From Cyanothece sp. BG0011 (GTDB lineage Bacteria > Cyanobacteriota > Cyanobacteriia > Cyanobacteriales > Microcystaceae): a DNA stretch of 43,107 nt. The position numbers were made by a program, and so were the translations under genes. The DNA is taken from positions 1 to 43,107 of the forward strand of contig NZ_PRLH01000054.1 of assembly GCF_003013815.1 (NCBI RefSeq). The letters run 5' to 3'. This document shows, in pieces, positions 29,690-35,499 of this stretch. The notes under the pieces are model-generated. The model saw only the letters and a list, made by a program, of their open reading frames with translations. It was not told the DNA's origin and searched no databases. Within the stretch, counting starts at the first letter, position 1. Every line of letters begins with the position of its first letter.

Positions 29690-29702
29690 AATGATAATCA
29701 TT
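29690..29702. promoter_or_regulatory. Fur/Zur-family operator, znuA/znuC divergent promoter
   Basis: AATGATAATCATT is a perfect palindrome. With flanks it reads GATAATGATAATCATT, which matches the first 16 positions of the classical Fur consensus GATAATGATAATCATTATC. The site is 23 bp before the znuA start and 13 bp before the znuC start. The gene content points to Zur. Confidence 0.8.
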
Positions 29703-29715
29703 CTAATCAAAGATT

Positions 29716-30465
29716 ATGTTAGAAGTCCAGCATCTGGGAGTTAACTACCGAGGGGTGGTGGCTGTAGAGAATATCAGCTTTTCTTTAGAGCCTGGGGAAA
29801 TTGTCGGGATTATTGGGCCAAATGGAGCCGGAAAAAGCTCTTTAATCAAGGGTATCTTAGGATTAGTCCCTCTAGATCGAGGAAAGGTCAGATTTCGGTC
29901 TCGTGCTTTATCGAAACAATTGGCACAAGTGGCTTATATTCCCCAAAGAAGCCAGATTGACTGGGATTATCCCATTACTGTGCAGAATGTGGTCATGATG
30001 GCCAGAATTCGTCATACGGGTTTATTTAAGTCTATTTCTCGCCAGTCTAAAATCATCGTTCAAGAAGCCTTGATGCGAGTGGGAATGTGGGAATTAAAAG
30101 ATCGTCCTATTGGAGAGTTATCAGGGGGACAACAACAACGGGTATTTTTAGCCCAAGCATTAGCCCAAGAAGCAGAATTATTCTTATTTGATGAACCCTT
30201 TATTGGGGTTGATAAAAAAACTGAAGCGATGCTTTTTGAAGTGTTTGATGAGTTAAAATCATCGGGAAAAATTTTATTAGTAGTCGGCCATGAATTACGG
30301 GAAACAGCAAGGGAATATGATCGATTTTTATTGATAAATAAAACCTTAATTGCCAATGGTTCTCCCAGGGAAGTGATTACGGCTGAAAATATTCAAGAAG
30401 CCTATGGAGATAATGTTATTTTCTTAAATCGTAATTCTCATCATTTTTCCTCTGGAATCCGTTAA
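29716..30465 (+). CDS. znuC: Zinc ABC transporter ATP-binding protein
   Basis: The 249-residue protein has a full set of ABC ATPase motifs: Walker A GPNGAGKSS (34-42), Q-loop Q77 in YIPQRSQIDWDYP, signature LSGGQQQR (135-142), Walker B LFLFDEP and the switch His in VVGHE. The IPQRSQIDWDYP stretch is typical of the Mn/Zn importer subgroup. It powers uptake through ZnuB of metal delivered by ZnuA. It begins 48 bp from the start of znuA on the opposite strand, and znuB follows 32 bp downstream. Confidence 0.93.
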   Translation: MLEVQHLGVNYRGVVAVENISFSLEPGEIVGIIGPNGAGKSSLIKGILGLVPLDRGKVRFRSRALSKQLAQVAYIPQRSQIDWDYPITVQNVVMMARIRHTGLFKSISRQSKIIVQEALMRVGMWELKDRPIGELSGGQQQRVFLAQALAQEAELFLFDEPFIGVDKKTEAMLFEVFDELKSSGKILLVVGHELRETAREYDRFLLINKTLIANGSPREVITAENIQEAYGDNVIFLNRNSHHFSSGIR

Positions 30466-30497
30466 CCTAATTATTATCATTTAAACTGAATTAAATT

Positions 30498-31373
30498 ATG
30501 ATTAATTTATTGCTCGAACCGTTAACCTTTGAATTTATGAGAAATGCCCTAATGATTATTATTTTATTAGGGATTCTTTGTGCTGTAACTGGTAGTTATT
30601 TAATTGTCCAAAAGATGGGATTATTAGGAGATGTTATTGCCCATGCGGTGTTGCCAGGATTAGCGATCGCGTTTTATTTAGGGATCGATATTTTTTTAGG
30701 GGCATTTATTTCGGGACTCTTAAGTACCTTAGTTATTTCTTGGATTCAATCTCAATCAAAAATTAAAGTTGATGTAGCGATGGCATTAGTTTTTTCTGGT
30801 TTTTTAGCGTTAGGAATCATGTTGATTACTCTATTAAAAAGTAAAATTGATCTTCATAGTTTTTTATTTGGTGATATTCTTGGTGTAACCCAAAATGATT
30901 TTTTTAGAACTTTAATTATTGTTGTTTTTATTGTAATTTTTGTCAAGCTTTTTTATAAAGAATTATTATTTTATACCTTCAATCCTTTGGGCGCACAAGC
31001 GATGGGATTACCTGTTAAATGGATTCATTTAGGGTTAATTTCTGCCATTACTTTAACCATTATTGCTAGTATGCAAGCGGTGGGGGTTGTGTTAGTGGTT
31101 TCTTTATTAGTGGGTCCAAGTATTACCGCTTATTTATTGGTAAAAGAACTCCATCAAATGATGTTTCTCGGGGCTATTATTGGCAGTTTAAGTGGCATGA
31201 TGGGAATTTATCTGAGTTATTACTTAAATGTACCATCAGGGGCAGCCATTGTGTTAGTGGTAACGGGTTTATTTTTATTAGCTTTATTAGTGAGTCCTTC
31301 CCAGGGAATTTTAACTCGTCCTGAAGTTATTTATCAAGTTAAAAAACTTTTACAAGGCTTAAAAAATACTTAA
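30498..31373 (+). CDS. znuB: Zinc ABC transporter permease
   Basis: The 291-residue integral membrane protein is of the ABC-3 family, with about eight hydrophobic segments. Family landmarks include IVQKMGLLGDVIAHAVLPGL near residues 36-57 and QAVGVVLVVSLLVGP around 198-212. It forms the channel of the importer with ZnuC and ZnuA. It is very probably co-transcribed with znuC (32-bp gap). The DUF4198-like gene follows after 88 bp and might be in the same transcript. Confidence 0.92.
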   Translation: MINLLLEPLTFEFMRNALMIIILLGILCAVTGSYLIVQKMGLLGDVIAHAVLPGLAIAFYLGIDIFLGAFISGLLSTLVISWIQSQSKIKVDVAMALVFSGFLALGIMLITLLKSKIDLHSFLFGDILGVTQNDFFRTLIIVVFIVIFVKLFYKELLFYTFNPLGAQAMGLPVKWIHLGLISAITLTIIASMQAVGVVLVVSLLVGPSITAYLLVKELHQMMFLGAIIGSLSGMMGIYLSYYLNVPSGAAIVLVVTGLFLLALLVSPSQGILTRPEVIYQVKKLLQGLKNT

Positions 31374-31461
31374 AAAGTTATAGAAATACCCCCCTGTAGG
31401 ATTGTAAAATGATTCAAAGTTTTTATAAGATTTATTGTGATGTTTTAGTTAGGTATTAGTT

Positions 31462-32262
31462 ATGCACTCGTTTACAAAAAAACTATTTTGGACAATTGCT
31501 TTATCACCATTATTAATCAGTCAACCTGTTTTTGCTCATGTGATTTGGTTTGAGTCACTCAATAATAATCAATACGAAATTATTTTCGGTCATCCTGAAC
31601 TTAATCAACCTGAACCTCTTATTTTAGATAAGTTCAAAGAAGCTACAGCCTATGATGAAAATAAAATGGTCATTCCTAGTACAACTATGTTTGAGAATGA
31701 CCGTTTATTCATTAATACAAATACTTCTGTCGCAGCTTTAACTGCATTTTATGATAATGGTTTTTGGCGACAAAATCCCGATGACACTTTTGATAATATT
31801 ACTCAAGAAGAAGCAGAAGCAATTAACTACGAAAATGTTTCTCAATTTGTTAAATATGCTAAGGGAATATATCAGTGGAATGATCCCTTATCACAACCTT
31901 TTGGCTTACCCATAGAAATCATAGCTTTAGAAAATCCATTTCAGTTACAAGAAGGAGATGATCTGCCTATTCAAGTATTATTCCAAGGAATGTTAATTGA
32001 TAATCCTTTAGTGGAATATTTAGGGCAGACAATTAGTATTAACGAGGAAGGAATTGCCTTGATTCCGATTGGTGCATCAGGATTACAAGTGATTGAAGCA
32101 AGTTATACTGATCCTAACTCTGAAAATCCGACAATTTCTTATGCTGCAACCTTTACCGCACAATCTGTTCCTGAACCACAATCTTTAGGATTATTAATAA
32201 CAACAATGGCGTTAGGAATTAATCGAGGCTTAAAAAATCGAAAGAAGAAAAAAATGCAATGA
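31462..32262 (+). CDS. Exported DUF4198-like protein with PEP-CTERM-like tail
   Basis: A signal peptide (residues 1-25, ending PVFA) would leave histidine 26 as the mature N-terminus, reading HVIWFESLN. Such a start is typical of DUF4198-like periplasmic proteins, some of which bind nickel or other metals. The body contains a PIEIIALENPFQLQEGDDLP segment and an Ig-like beta region (LPIQVLFQG, then SINEEGIALIPI). The C-terminus has PEPQSLGLL, then a hydrophobic stretch, then a basic run (NRKKKKMQ), the PEP-CTERM arrangement for sorting by exosortase. It follows znuC-znuB on the same strand, so a role in metal handling outside the cytoplasm is plausible but inferred. No Fur-type box is visible directly in front of it. 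Confidence 0.75.
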   Translation: MHSFTKKLFWTIALSPLLISQPVFAHVIWFESLNNNQYEIIFGHPELNQPEPLILDKFKEATAYDENKMVIPSTTMFENDRLFINTNTSVAALTAFYDNGFWRQNPDDTFDNITQEEAEAINYENVSQFVKYAKGIYQWNDPLSQPFGLPIEIIALENPFQLQEGDDLPIQVLFQGMLIDNPLVEYLGQTISINEEGIALIPIGASGLQVIEASYTDPNSENPTISYAATFTAQSVPEPQSLGLLITTMALGINRGLKNRKKKKMQ

Positions 32263-32303
32263 TTATAATTGGGTTTTAATACTAAATTTCTAACATTTAT
32301 TAT

Positions 32304-34402: not shown

Positions 34403-34414
34403 CTCAAAAATTGT

Positions 34415-35404
34415 TTAAGGCTGTAACATTAACGCCACTTCCTTGGCAAAATAGGTCAAAATCAAATCAGCCCCGGCTCGTTTCATACTGGTTAAGGTTT
34501 CGAGGATCACTTTTTTCTCATCAATCCAACCTTGTTGACCAGCAGCCTTAATCATGGCATATTCTCCACTCACATTATAGGCAACCACCGGCAAATGAGT
34601 ATAGTCTCGTACCCGACGAATAATATCTAAATAGGCTAAAGCCGGTTTAATCATCAGTAAATCTGCCCCTTCTTTAATATCTAAAGCAATTTCTTTAATC
34701 GCTTCTCTACTATTGGCAATATCCATCTGATAAGTCTGTTTATCGCCAAATTTGGGGGCTGAAGCTAAAGCATCCCGAAACGGGCCATAATAAGCAGAGG
34801 CGTATTTTGCAGAATAGGCAAGAATTCCTACATTGATCCAGCCCTCAGCGTCTAAAGCCCTGCGAATTGCCCCGATTCTACCATCCATCATATCAGAAGG
34901 TGCTACTAAATCCGCTCCGGCTTCGGCATGGGATAAAGCCATTTTGACTAATACTTCAACCGTTTCATCATTGAGAATTTGCCCATTTTCCACAATTCCA
35001 TCATGGCCATAGGGAGAATAGGGATCTAAAGCAACATCAGTAATCACCATTAATTGAGGAATTGCTTGTTTAATGGCTTTAACCGTGCGTTGAACTAGCC
35101 CATTAGGATTATAGCTTTCTGTTCCTTGATTATCCTTCTTTTCATCAGCAATAAGGGGAAATAAGGCGATTCCCTGAATCCCTAAATTAACCACATCTTG
35201 TAACTCTTTGAGCAATAAATCAAGAGAATAACGGTAGCATTGGGGCATAGAAGGGATTTCTTGCTTTATATTATCCCCTTCCATCACAAATACGGGATAA
35301 ATCAGGTCATTAACTGTTAATTCTGTTTCTTTTACCAAACGACGTAAGGCTTCAGTACGACGTAAACGACGGGGACGATGGATGAGGGGGTGAGGTGCAA
35401 CCAT
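34415..35404 (-). CDS. hemB: Porphobilinogen synthase (5-aminolevulinate dehydratase), non-zinc type
   Basis: HemB condenses two 5-aminolevulinate molecules to porphobilinogen. The 329-residue protein has both active-site lysines: K200 (AYSAKYAS) and K253 ([10 protein letters not shown]). Where zinc-dependent enzymes have a three-cysteine site, this one has [15 protein letters not shown] (122-136) with aspartates, the form found in plants and other cyanobacteria that does not need active-site zinc. Magnesium is the expected allosteric metal. A Fur-family box lies 15 bp upstream of the start, an unusual arrangement for a housekeeping haem gene. It points either to zinc control of tetrapyrrole synthesis or to a second hemB elsewhere in the genome. 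Confidence 0.95.
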
Positions 35405-35418
35405 AGTTTGCTTTTAGA

Positions 35419-35431
35419 AATGATAATCATT
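35419..35431. promoter_or_regulatory. Fur/Zur-family operator upstream of hemB
   Basis: AATGATAATCATT is an exact copy of the 13-mer, followed by ATTA. It lies in the hemB/flavoprotein divergent region, next to the hemB start. Confidence 0.8.
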
Positions 35432-35458
35432 ATTATATTGACAAAAGCATCAAAATGA

Positions 35459-35471
35459 AATGATAATCATT
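35459..35471. promoter_or_regulatory. Fur/Zur-family operator upstream of the flavoprotein gene
   Basis: AATGATAATCATT continues to TGATAATCATTATCA (35461-35475), the closest match in the window to a full Fur-family operator. It is 40 bp from the box at 35419, counted start to start, and 28 bp before the flavoprotein ATG. Confidence 0.8.
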
Positions 35472-35499
35472 ATCATAAAAGTAAAGAAATATTAAAAGA

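Follow-up and report, generated by a model that had tools for sequence, protein, structure and literature searches.

Zinc import genes, a COG0523 GTPase gene, a WD40 gene, a hemB gene, and a flavoprotein gene lie together on a 43,107-nucleotide (nt) stretch of Cyanothece sp. BG0011 (contig NZ_PRLH01000054.1; hereafter the window), and copies of one palindrome stand among them. Which metal, and which regulator, controls this block? A preliminary description took it as a compact metal-starvation regulon and named Zur as the regulator. The present analysis favors zinc and Zur as the main control, at a probability of approximately 90%, with a possible overlap by Fur. The choice of Zur was strengthened by exact boxes in two znuABC clusters, a Zur-like gene, the pattern of boxes at zinc-less hemB (hemB2) genes, and published Zur targets.

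The 13-mer AATGATAATCATT was found in exact form at 29690, 34351, 35419, and 35459 of the window, with a one-mismatch copy at 34390, i.e., where the preliminary description had placed them. A one-mismatch copy absent from that description was detected at 30469, 17 nt ahead of znuB, and two more, at 30551 (coding) and 32258 (behind a gene), look irrelevant. When up to two mismatches were allowed, 22 matches were counted in the window; 100 shuffled versions gave a mean of 4.07 and a maximum of 13, and none reached 22. Pairs of palindromes approximately 40 nt apart were recognized (34351/34390 and 35419/35459), and such pairing was frequent. On another contig, C172, two pairs were 26 nt apart (14095/14121 and 20415/20441).

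The whole genome was scanned, i.e., 5,597,925 bases in 227 contigs, of which the window is contig C184. The exact 13-mer occurred only seven times, four in the window and three on C172. All seven copies were intergenic, 14–61 nt from the nearest start codon, and preceded genes in two clusters, each with znuABC. All copies noticed earlier were placed in promoters of one 7-kb block; their position before genes held, and three further copies are on C172. With up to one mismatch, 53 forward and 43 reverse matches were found (the reversed pattern gave 20 and 30), which correspond to 89 places. The 82 one-mismatch places were divided into 36 intergenic ones and 46 inside open frames, nine of the latter clustered in one stretch of contig C144. 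Near-matches are common within genes, unlike the exact word. For two of the 46, on contig C85, the thrS frame had been extended upstream, so that they are probably promoter sites. The preliminary description had named frequent occurrence outside promoters as a point that would count against regulation. This objection fails for the exact word, whose few copies are confined to two clusters; one-mismatch copies are common elsewhere.

The cluster on C172 encodes a znuABC set, a Fur-family protein, an OprB porin, the second zinc-less HemB, a CobW_C protein, a His-rich COG0523 protein, and another flavoprotein. A likely exported protein without Pfam match and a calcineurin-type phosphoesterase were also found there, together with a protein that resembles the phosphoesterase and has no Pfam match; the last two match the same stretch of Synechococcus sp. 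PCC 7002. Most of these genes have an exact or one-mismatch palindrome within approximately 110 nt, and nine C172 promoters carry such sites. One-mismatch sites also precede thrS with a COG0523 gene on C85 (two sites) and a COG0523 gene on contig C52. The regulon is therefore not compact, as had been proposed, since exact or near-exact boxes also front this larger island and the thrS and COG0523 genes of C85 and C52. The C172 Fur-family gene adjoins znuABC, and the best solved relative of its product is 7ne9, the deposited structure of Synechococcus WH8102 Zur (PMC9337993, available text). By its sequence, this gene is Zur-like and would supply the Zur protein of the genome. In the same study, one box between divergent znuA and znuC likely serves both genes, and the box at 29690 of the window has the same arrangement.

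The palindrome alone cannot separate Zur from Fur; the surrounding genes can. The 13-mer is presumably part of the classical Fur box. It or related words appear in print in 58 papers, and among the 20 titles listed most concern Fur or iron. The sites might be Fur boxes and the block an iron-starvation regulon; supplying iron and haem would then be the task of hemB and of a siderophore-type N-hydroxylase. This explanation is considered very unlikely. The same boxes are carried by znuABC and by the Zur-like gene, and three iron loci of the genome (two feoB and one flavodoxin, the flavodoxin stretch ending at a contig end) have no site at up to one mismatch.

The hemB genes give a further test of the metal. 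Three hemB genes were found in the genome. The copy on contig C164 is of the zinc type (DTCLCEYTSHGHCG), whereas those of the window and C172 are zinc-less (DVALDP...GHDG); the site alignment confirmed that the zinc cysteines of the window HemB are replaced. A hemB match was obtained in 164 of 292 genomes of the phylum, and BG0011 was the only one with three, among the matches listed. In the tree, the window hemB and a gene of the same family (L100) form one pair, and the C172 hemB and a gene of another family (L104) form a second. Because each pairs with a different family, the two are not a recent local duplication.

Boxes were counted within 300 nt upstream at up to one mismatch to AATGATNATCATT, and HemB2 was defined as matches of at least approximately 68% identity, among the matches listed. 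The set with HemB2 and a second hemB comprised 43 genomes; BG0011 itself, G123, G129, and G135 (61%) stand outside it. A HemB2 box was present in 37 of the 43 (29 exact), and in none of the 22 genomes that, besides HemB2, had no other hemB match at E 1e-40. No box was found at the zinc hemB1 genes examined (0/20), and the C164 copy of BG0011 had four mismatches at best. First-order random resamples of the upstream sequences gave means of 0.18, 0.02, and 0.04 for the 43, 22, and 20 genes, respectively. Inspection of the residues showed the zinc-less site in at least 42/43 and in 22/22 HemB2, and the cysteine site in 20/20 hemB1. As 18 of the 20 hemB1 came from the 43 genomes, the second hemB of the other 25 is zinc-type by inference. 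The association of HemB2 box with second hemB had a Fisher p of 3e-12, which ignores relatedness. The pattern fits HemB2 as a backup enzyme under Zur, a role proposed for HemB2 of Pseudomonas putida (Haas 2009, PMC2770081, available text). A box that tracks the second hemB would not be explained by iron.

Clusters that contain a hemB2-type gene, the gene being 75–77% identical, were also seen on plasmids of PCC 7002, Leptolyngbya BL0902, and Trichormus variabilis (L093, L094, and L097). A hemB relative was present in 653 plasmid records, 558 of them from Klebsiella, where identity to the window HemB was less than 60%.

Zur targets of the same functional classes have been published for other cyanobacteria. 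According to the available text of PMC6103462, these include hemB2, thrS2, folE2, znuABC, and three COG0523 genes in Anabaena, and hemB2 and folE2 in Synechococcus 7002. The regulon of Anabaena sp. PCC 7120, which also has TonB receptors, resembles that of BG0011 in these classes; BG0011 differs by its two islands, its second zinc-less hemB, and the location of thrS with COG0523 genes on another contig. The order hemB-flavoprotein-thrS-COG0523 occurs in several Nostocales loci of the 80-locus survey described below. A Zur-controlled operon of thrS2 and four flanking genes, one of them the COG0523 gene all4722, was reported (PMC4787780, in the part available). The arrangement in the window, where the COG0523 and WD40 genes overlap close to znuABC and Zur-type sites are present, also agrees by domains and neighbors with COG0523 subfamily 5. 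The accessible part of Haas 2009 (PMC2770081) describes this subfamily together with WD40, znuABC, and Zur sites and names several Cyanothece for Zur sites before COG0523 genes.

The closest parallel in PCC 7002 has znuABC, a zinc-less hemB paralog (75% identical), and a FAD/NAD(P) flavoprotein. Its plasmid pAQ7 carries hemB-II, folE-II, G0131 (GTPase-like), and G0132 (FAD-dependent oxidoreductase), all derepressed in a zur mutant and induced by TPEN (PMC4628125, available text), which argues against control by Fur alone. From its description and neighbors, G0132 appears to be the RS15860 flavoprotein of pAQ7. The window flavoprotein is 53.6% identical to the pAQ7 FAD protein, whose gene lies approximately 3 kb from hemB, with folE in between. 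Unlike the window, the pAQ7 stretch showed no COG0523 or WD40 gene (WD40 by annotation only). The preliminary description had found it less expected that tetrapyrrole synthesis and a flavoprotein should be tied to zinc supply. Such a tie is not unexpected, because the Zur-controlled zinc-less HemB2 is a published replacement of zinc HemB1, and an oxidoreductase with FAD is reported as Zur-dependent in 7002.

The flavoprotein was found, in some cases as a partial copy, in 41 of 292 genomes of the phylum. Among 29 examined of the 40 other genomes carrying it, 17 had a box at up to one mismatch. A locus survey covered the best 80 of 387 relatives. By their titles, only one of these contigs was not cyanobacterial, a Gracilibacteria-titled one that is apparently mis-binned; because the set is essentially cyanobacterial, its neighbor counts are silent on other phyla. 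A box at up to one mismatch was present in 50 of the 80 loci. Sixty-three loci encoded one or more of the following: COG0523/CobW_C, a zinc-type ABC binding protein or permease, HemB, ThrS, and Zur; 17 encoded none of them. Of the 47 loci of at least 15 kb, 41 encoded one or more. All 30 HemB neighbors belong to the zinc-less type, because they are 73–87% identical to the window HemB and the zinc type is 54–61% identical. As a rough control, 2 of 31 stretches of the BG0011 genome (133,758 bases) had a related gene (ABC ATPase, porin); these stretches were picked for a near-match site and are unmatched to the 80 loci in length and genome.

Beyond cyanobacteria, a plasmid search gave 12 records, 11 of which, from haloarchaea and Bacilli, were examined. 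Ten of these stretches had a COG0523 gene (seven) or a metal-binding ABC protein gene (four; one stretch had both) near the flavoprotein; the stretch seen in the Staphylococcus aureus record had neither. In Natrialba, Halovenus, Haloferax, and Natronosalvus, the ribosomal protein S14 gene near the flavoprotein encodes CxxC pairs that each lack the second Cys, as read from an alignment of the Natrialba protein with a solved S14. The S14 encoded nearby in Metabacillus is long and has only one Cys. A scan of viral sequences gave two short matches (28 residues, 54%). By titles and abstract beginnings, no publication on this flavoprotein across domains was found in a partial literature collection, and the available parts of PMC12058595 and PMC13339975 mention neither the flavoprotein nor the sequence of the box.

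The AlphaFold model of the flavoprotein (25 sequences, pLDDT 84.3) matched amine N-hydroxylases in Foldseek with E of approximately 1e-20, TM of approximately 0.7, and 15–17% identity (top 50 rows), including putrescine and ornithine N-hydroxylases, PvdA, and DesB. The predicted fold and a PF13434 match above cut-off are held in common with the siderophore amine N-hydroxylases, i.e., PvdA, SidA, DesB, and putrescine N-hydroxylase. The fold would suit a siderophore enzyme under Fur, and TonB-dependent receptors and ExbB/ExbD were encoded near flavoprotein relatives on two plasmids. However, the window protein is only 15–17% identical to those enzymes and has its own conserved stretches, LRSP.VHH and DADPGWLGPK. 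In a Pfam scan of nine window genes, no sign of an acyltransferase or a siderophore synthetase was detected. Residues G16, G18, G202, G204, and A324-T325-G326 were invariant among 11 homologues; we take the glycines to be the FAD and NADPH Rossmann motifs and A324-T325-G326 to be the ATG motif of N-hydroxylating monooxygenases. LRSP.VHH is highly conserved, and DADPGWLGPK occurs in cyanobacteria and Bacilli and partially in haloarchaea. Both lie in low-confidence loops of the model and are perhaps substrate loops. A role as dithiol reductase was considered and set aside, since none of the Cys residues was invariant among the 11 homologues, although C106 and C294 were nearly invariant in 25 cyanobacterial ones. 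As a tentative and still doubtful proposal, the flavoprotein could found a family of zinc-starvation enzymes common to cyanobacteria, Bacilli, and haloarchaea. It would be a partner of COG0523 GTPases and would probably N-hydroxylate an amine. The reaction would make or modify a small ligand of zinc, either a metallophore or an intracellular carrier, and this ligand would help to feed scarce zinc to essential clients. The Zur-regulated oxidoreductase cg0795 of Corynebacterium glutamicum, divergent from a COG0523 gene (PMC2823685, available text), is similar by description only and is a lead, not support.

Several observations speak against zinc as the main control. One iron locus has a two-mismatch site approximately 170 nt before feoB, and the titles listed for the 13-mer are mainly on Fur or iron, as mentioned above. 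No hemB2 box was found in L114 or in four genomes of one genus (L110, L111, L112, and L116), where two hemB genes are present and no palindrome lies within 300 nt of the zinc-less one, and L117 has two mismatches; in that genus, control may have been lost or hemB2 may lie within an operon. The Fisher value overstates the association, as the tree gives seven independent pairs on all branches and one on the supported branches. The flavoprotein box at up to one mismatch was missing in 12 of the 29 genomes, where three of the genes (G022, G064, and G074) are directly behind hemB2, and in 30 of the 80 loci.

Dual control was also weighed, i.e., Zur and Fur (or PerR) acting on overlapping repeats, so that the block would answer both zinc and iron or oxidative stress. 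Some sites, such as AATGATAATCATTATCAT at 35459, grow into overlapping repeats similar to a complete Fur box. For Anabaena, Zur and FurA have been proposed to cross-talk (PMC10957091, in the part available), and iron genes were also induced by TPEN in 7002. On the other side, the same 7002 study, in its available text (PMC4628125), assigns a separate regulator to iron, to zinc, and to oxidative stress, and the targets of each are few. Dual control is considered rather unlikely, and zinc through Zur is retained as the main control.

We infer Zur binding, repression, and the role of each protein from the observed sites, genes, metal-site residues, and comparative association. When zinc is sufficient, Zur with zinc would bind the palindromes near the starts, one of them over a likely -10 element, and RNA polymerase would be kept off. 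When zinc falls, Zur would be released and the transcription units would be turned on. The zinc import units, i.e., znuA and znuC-znuB, would be derepressed, and the COG0523 GTPase with its WD40 neighbor would act in zinc allocation. The zinc-less HemB would replace the zinc-type HemB1 of C164, and haem and chlorophyll synthesis would go on. The flavoprotein of the amine N-hydroxylase fold would be derepressed along with the block.

The transporter itself appears to be of the zinc type. His228 of ZnuA aligns with Glu205 of the pneumococcal-type protein 4utp, and the metal site His-His-His-Asp with a His-rich loop suggests zinc by sequence; this ligand set is that of TroA/AztC zinc-type proteins. 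The best NCBIfam matches were AztC and MntC, both below cut-off. A manganese transporter was considered, since the top-scoring solved relatives carry manganese names; the His third ligand and the boxes favor zinc.

Features of the window are collected in Table 1. The earlier gene identities, i.e., zinc import, COG0523, WD40, non-zinc HemB, and monooxygenase-like flavoprotein, were supported by Pfam, and the HemB site residues and the flavoprotein fold agree with them.

Table 1. Features of the window with coordinates, strand, and supporting evidence.
Feature	Position	Strand	Evidence
znuA-type zinc-binding protein, His-rich loop	28630..29667	-	PF01297 2.6e-82
Zur-type palindrome common to divergent znuA and znuC	29690..29702	.	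exact 13-mer
znuC ATPase	29716..30465	+	PF00005 1.6e-30
Palindrome ahead of znuB	30469..30481	.	one mismatch; pattern scan
znuB permease	30498..31373	+	PF00950 9.7e-75 (ABC-3 permease)
DUF4198 protein	31462..32262	+	PF10670 1.3e-18
WD40 protein	32304..33371	-	PF00400 4.1e-29; overlaps COG0523 gene end from 33359
COG0523 GTPase (cobW + CobW_C)	33359..34330	-	PF02492 2.9e-64, PF07683 2.3e-25
Zur-type palindrome, COG0523-WD40 promoter	34351..34363	.	exact; start 21 nt away
Second palindrome, COG0523-WD40 promoter	34390..34402	.	one mismatch
Zinc-less hemB2	34415..35404	-	PF00490 8.2e-149 (ALAD); zinc cysteines replaced
Zur-type palindrome nearest hemB2	35419..35431	.	exact; hemB start 15 nt away
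Promoter-like TTGACA-18-GATAAT for flavoprotein	35438..35467	+	11/12 matches; second hexamer within 35459 palindrome
Zur-type palindrome nearest flavoprotein	35459..35471	.	exact; flavoprotein start 29 nt away
FAD/NADPH flavoprotein, predicted N-hydroxylating monooxygenase fold	35500..36720	+	PF13454 4.7e-11, PF13434 1.2e-8, above cut-off
Partial cobW-domain match at window edge	42962..43096	-	E 5.5e-7

A promoter-like TTAACA-17-TATGAT ends at 29689 and abuts the 29690 palindrome. The promoter-like element of the flavoprotein was the best of 25 sigma-70-like matches in 29500–35700, where shuffling gave a mean of 22.4, so the number of matches is not above chance. The DUF4198 gene is perhaps in the same operon as znuC-znuB; no 13-mer match at up to two mismatches was found in the gap before it.

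Other observations on the wider genome were made. At C172:13798-14076 (minus), a fragment 68% identical to residues 4–96 of the window flavoprotein lies beside the znuA promoter and may be what is left of a second copy. Another Fur-family gene, which by eye looks like Zur, was found at C151:44500-48700, from 968 on, in two pieces with IS200/IS605-type genes between. C172 (L031:14116-17278) and a Haloferax plasmid (L227:7931-12326) share a group made up of a COG0523 gene, a gene for another type of flavoprotein (48% identical), and one for a FeoB-like GTPase (40%); on the plasmid, the group adjoins S14 and hisI. The GTPase is possibly a zinc-linked transporter, and its frame on C172 ends near a transposase-like frame. 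The CobW_C protein without cobW-domain match (L031:9563-10309) has relatives adjoining the flavoprotein in 34 of the 80 cyanobacterial loci, where two genes of phosphoesterase type are often present as well. One-mismatch palindromes were found at C202:6092, before a second OprB porin gene, and at C167:8347-8375, before a large gene that is malic-enzyme-like by eye; both genes are possible further regulon members.

The block would represent a Zur-controlled zinc-sparing programme, known in kind, in another cyanobacterium. The present analysis adds the association of the HemB2 box with a second hemB, and the predicted fold and zinc-gene neighborhood of the flavoprotein. The missing box in 22 of 22 sole-HemB2 genomes is a genomic sign that Zur controls the backup enzyme and not tetrapyrrole synthesis as such. 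In some bacteria and archaea alike, the flavoenzyme gene has zinc-starvation genes nearby, and some of the archaeal loci also encode an S14 lacking zinc cysteines; the product of the enzyme is a concrete question in zinc allocation.

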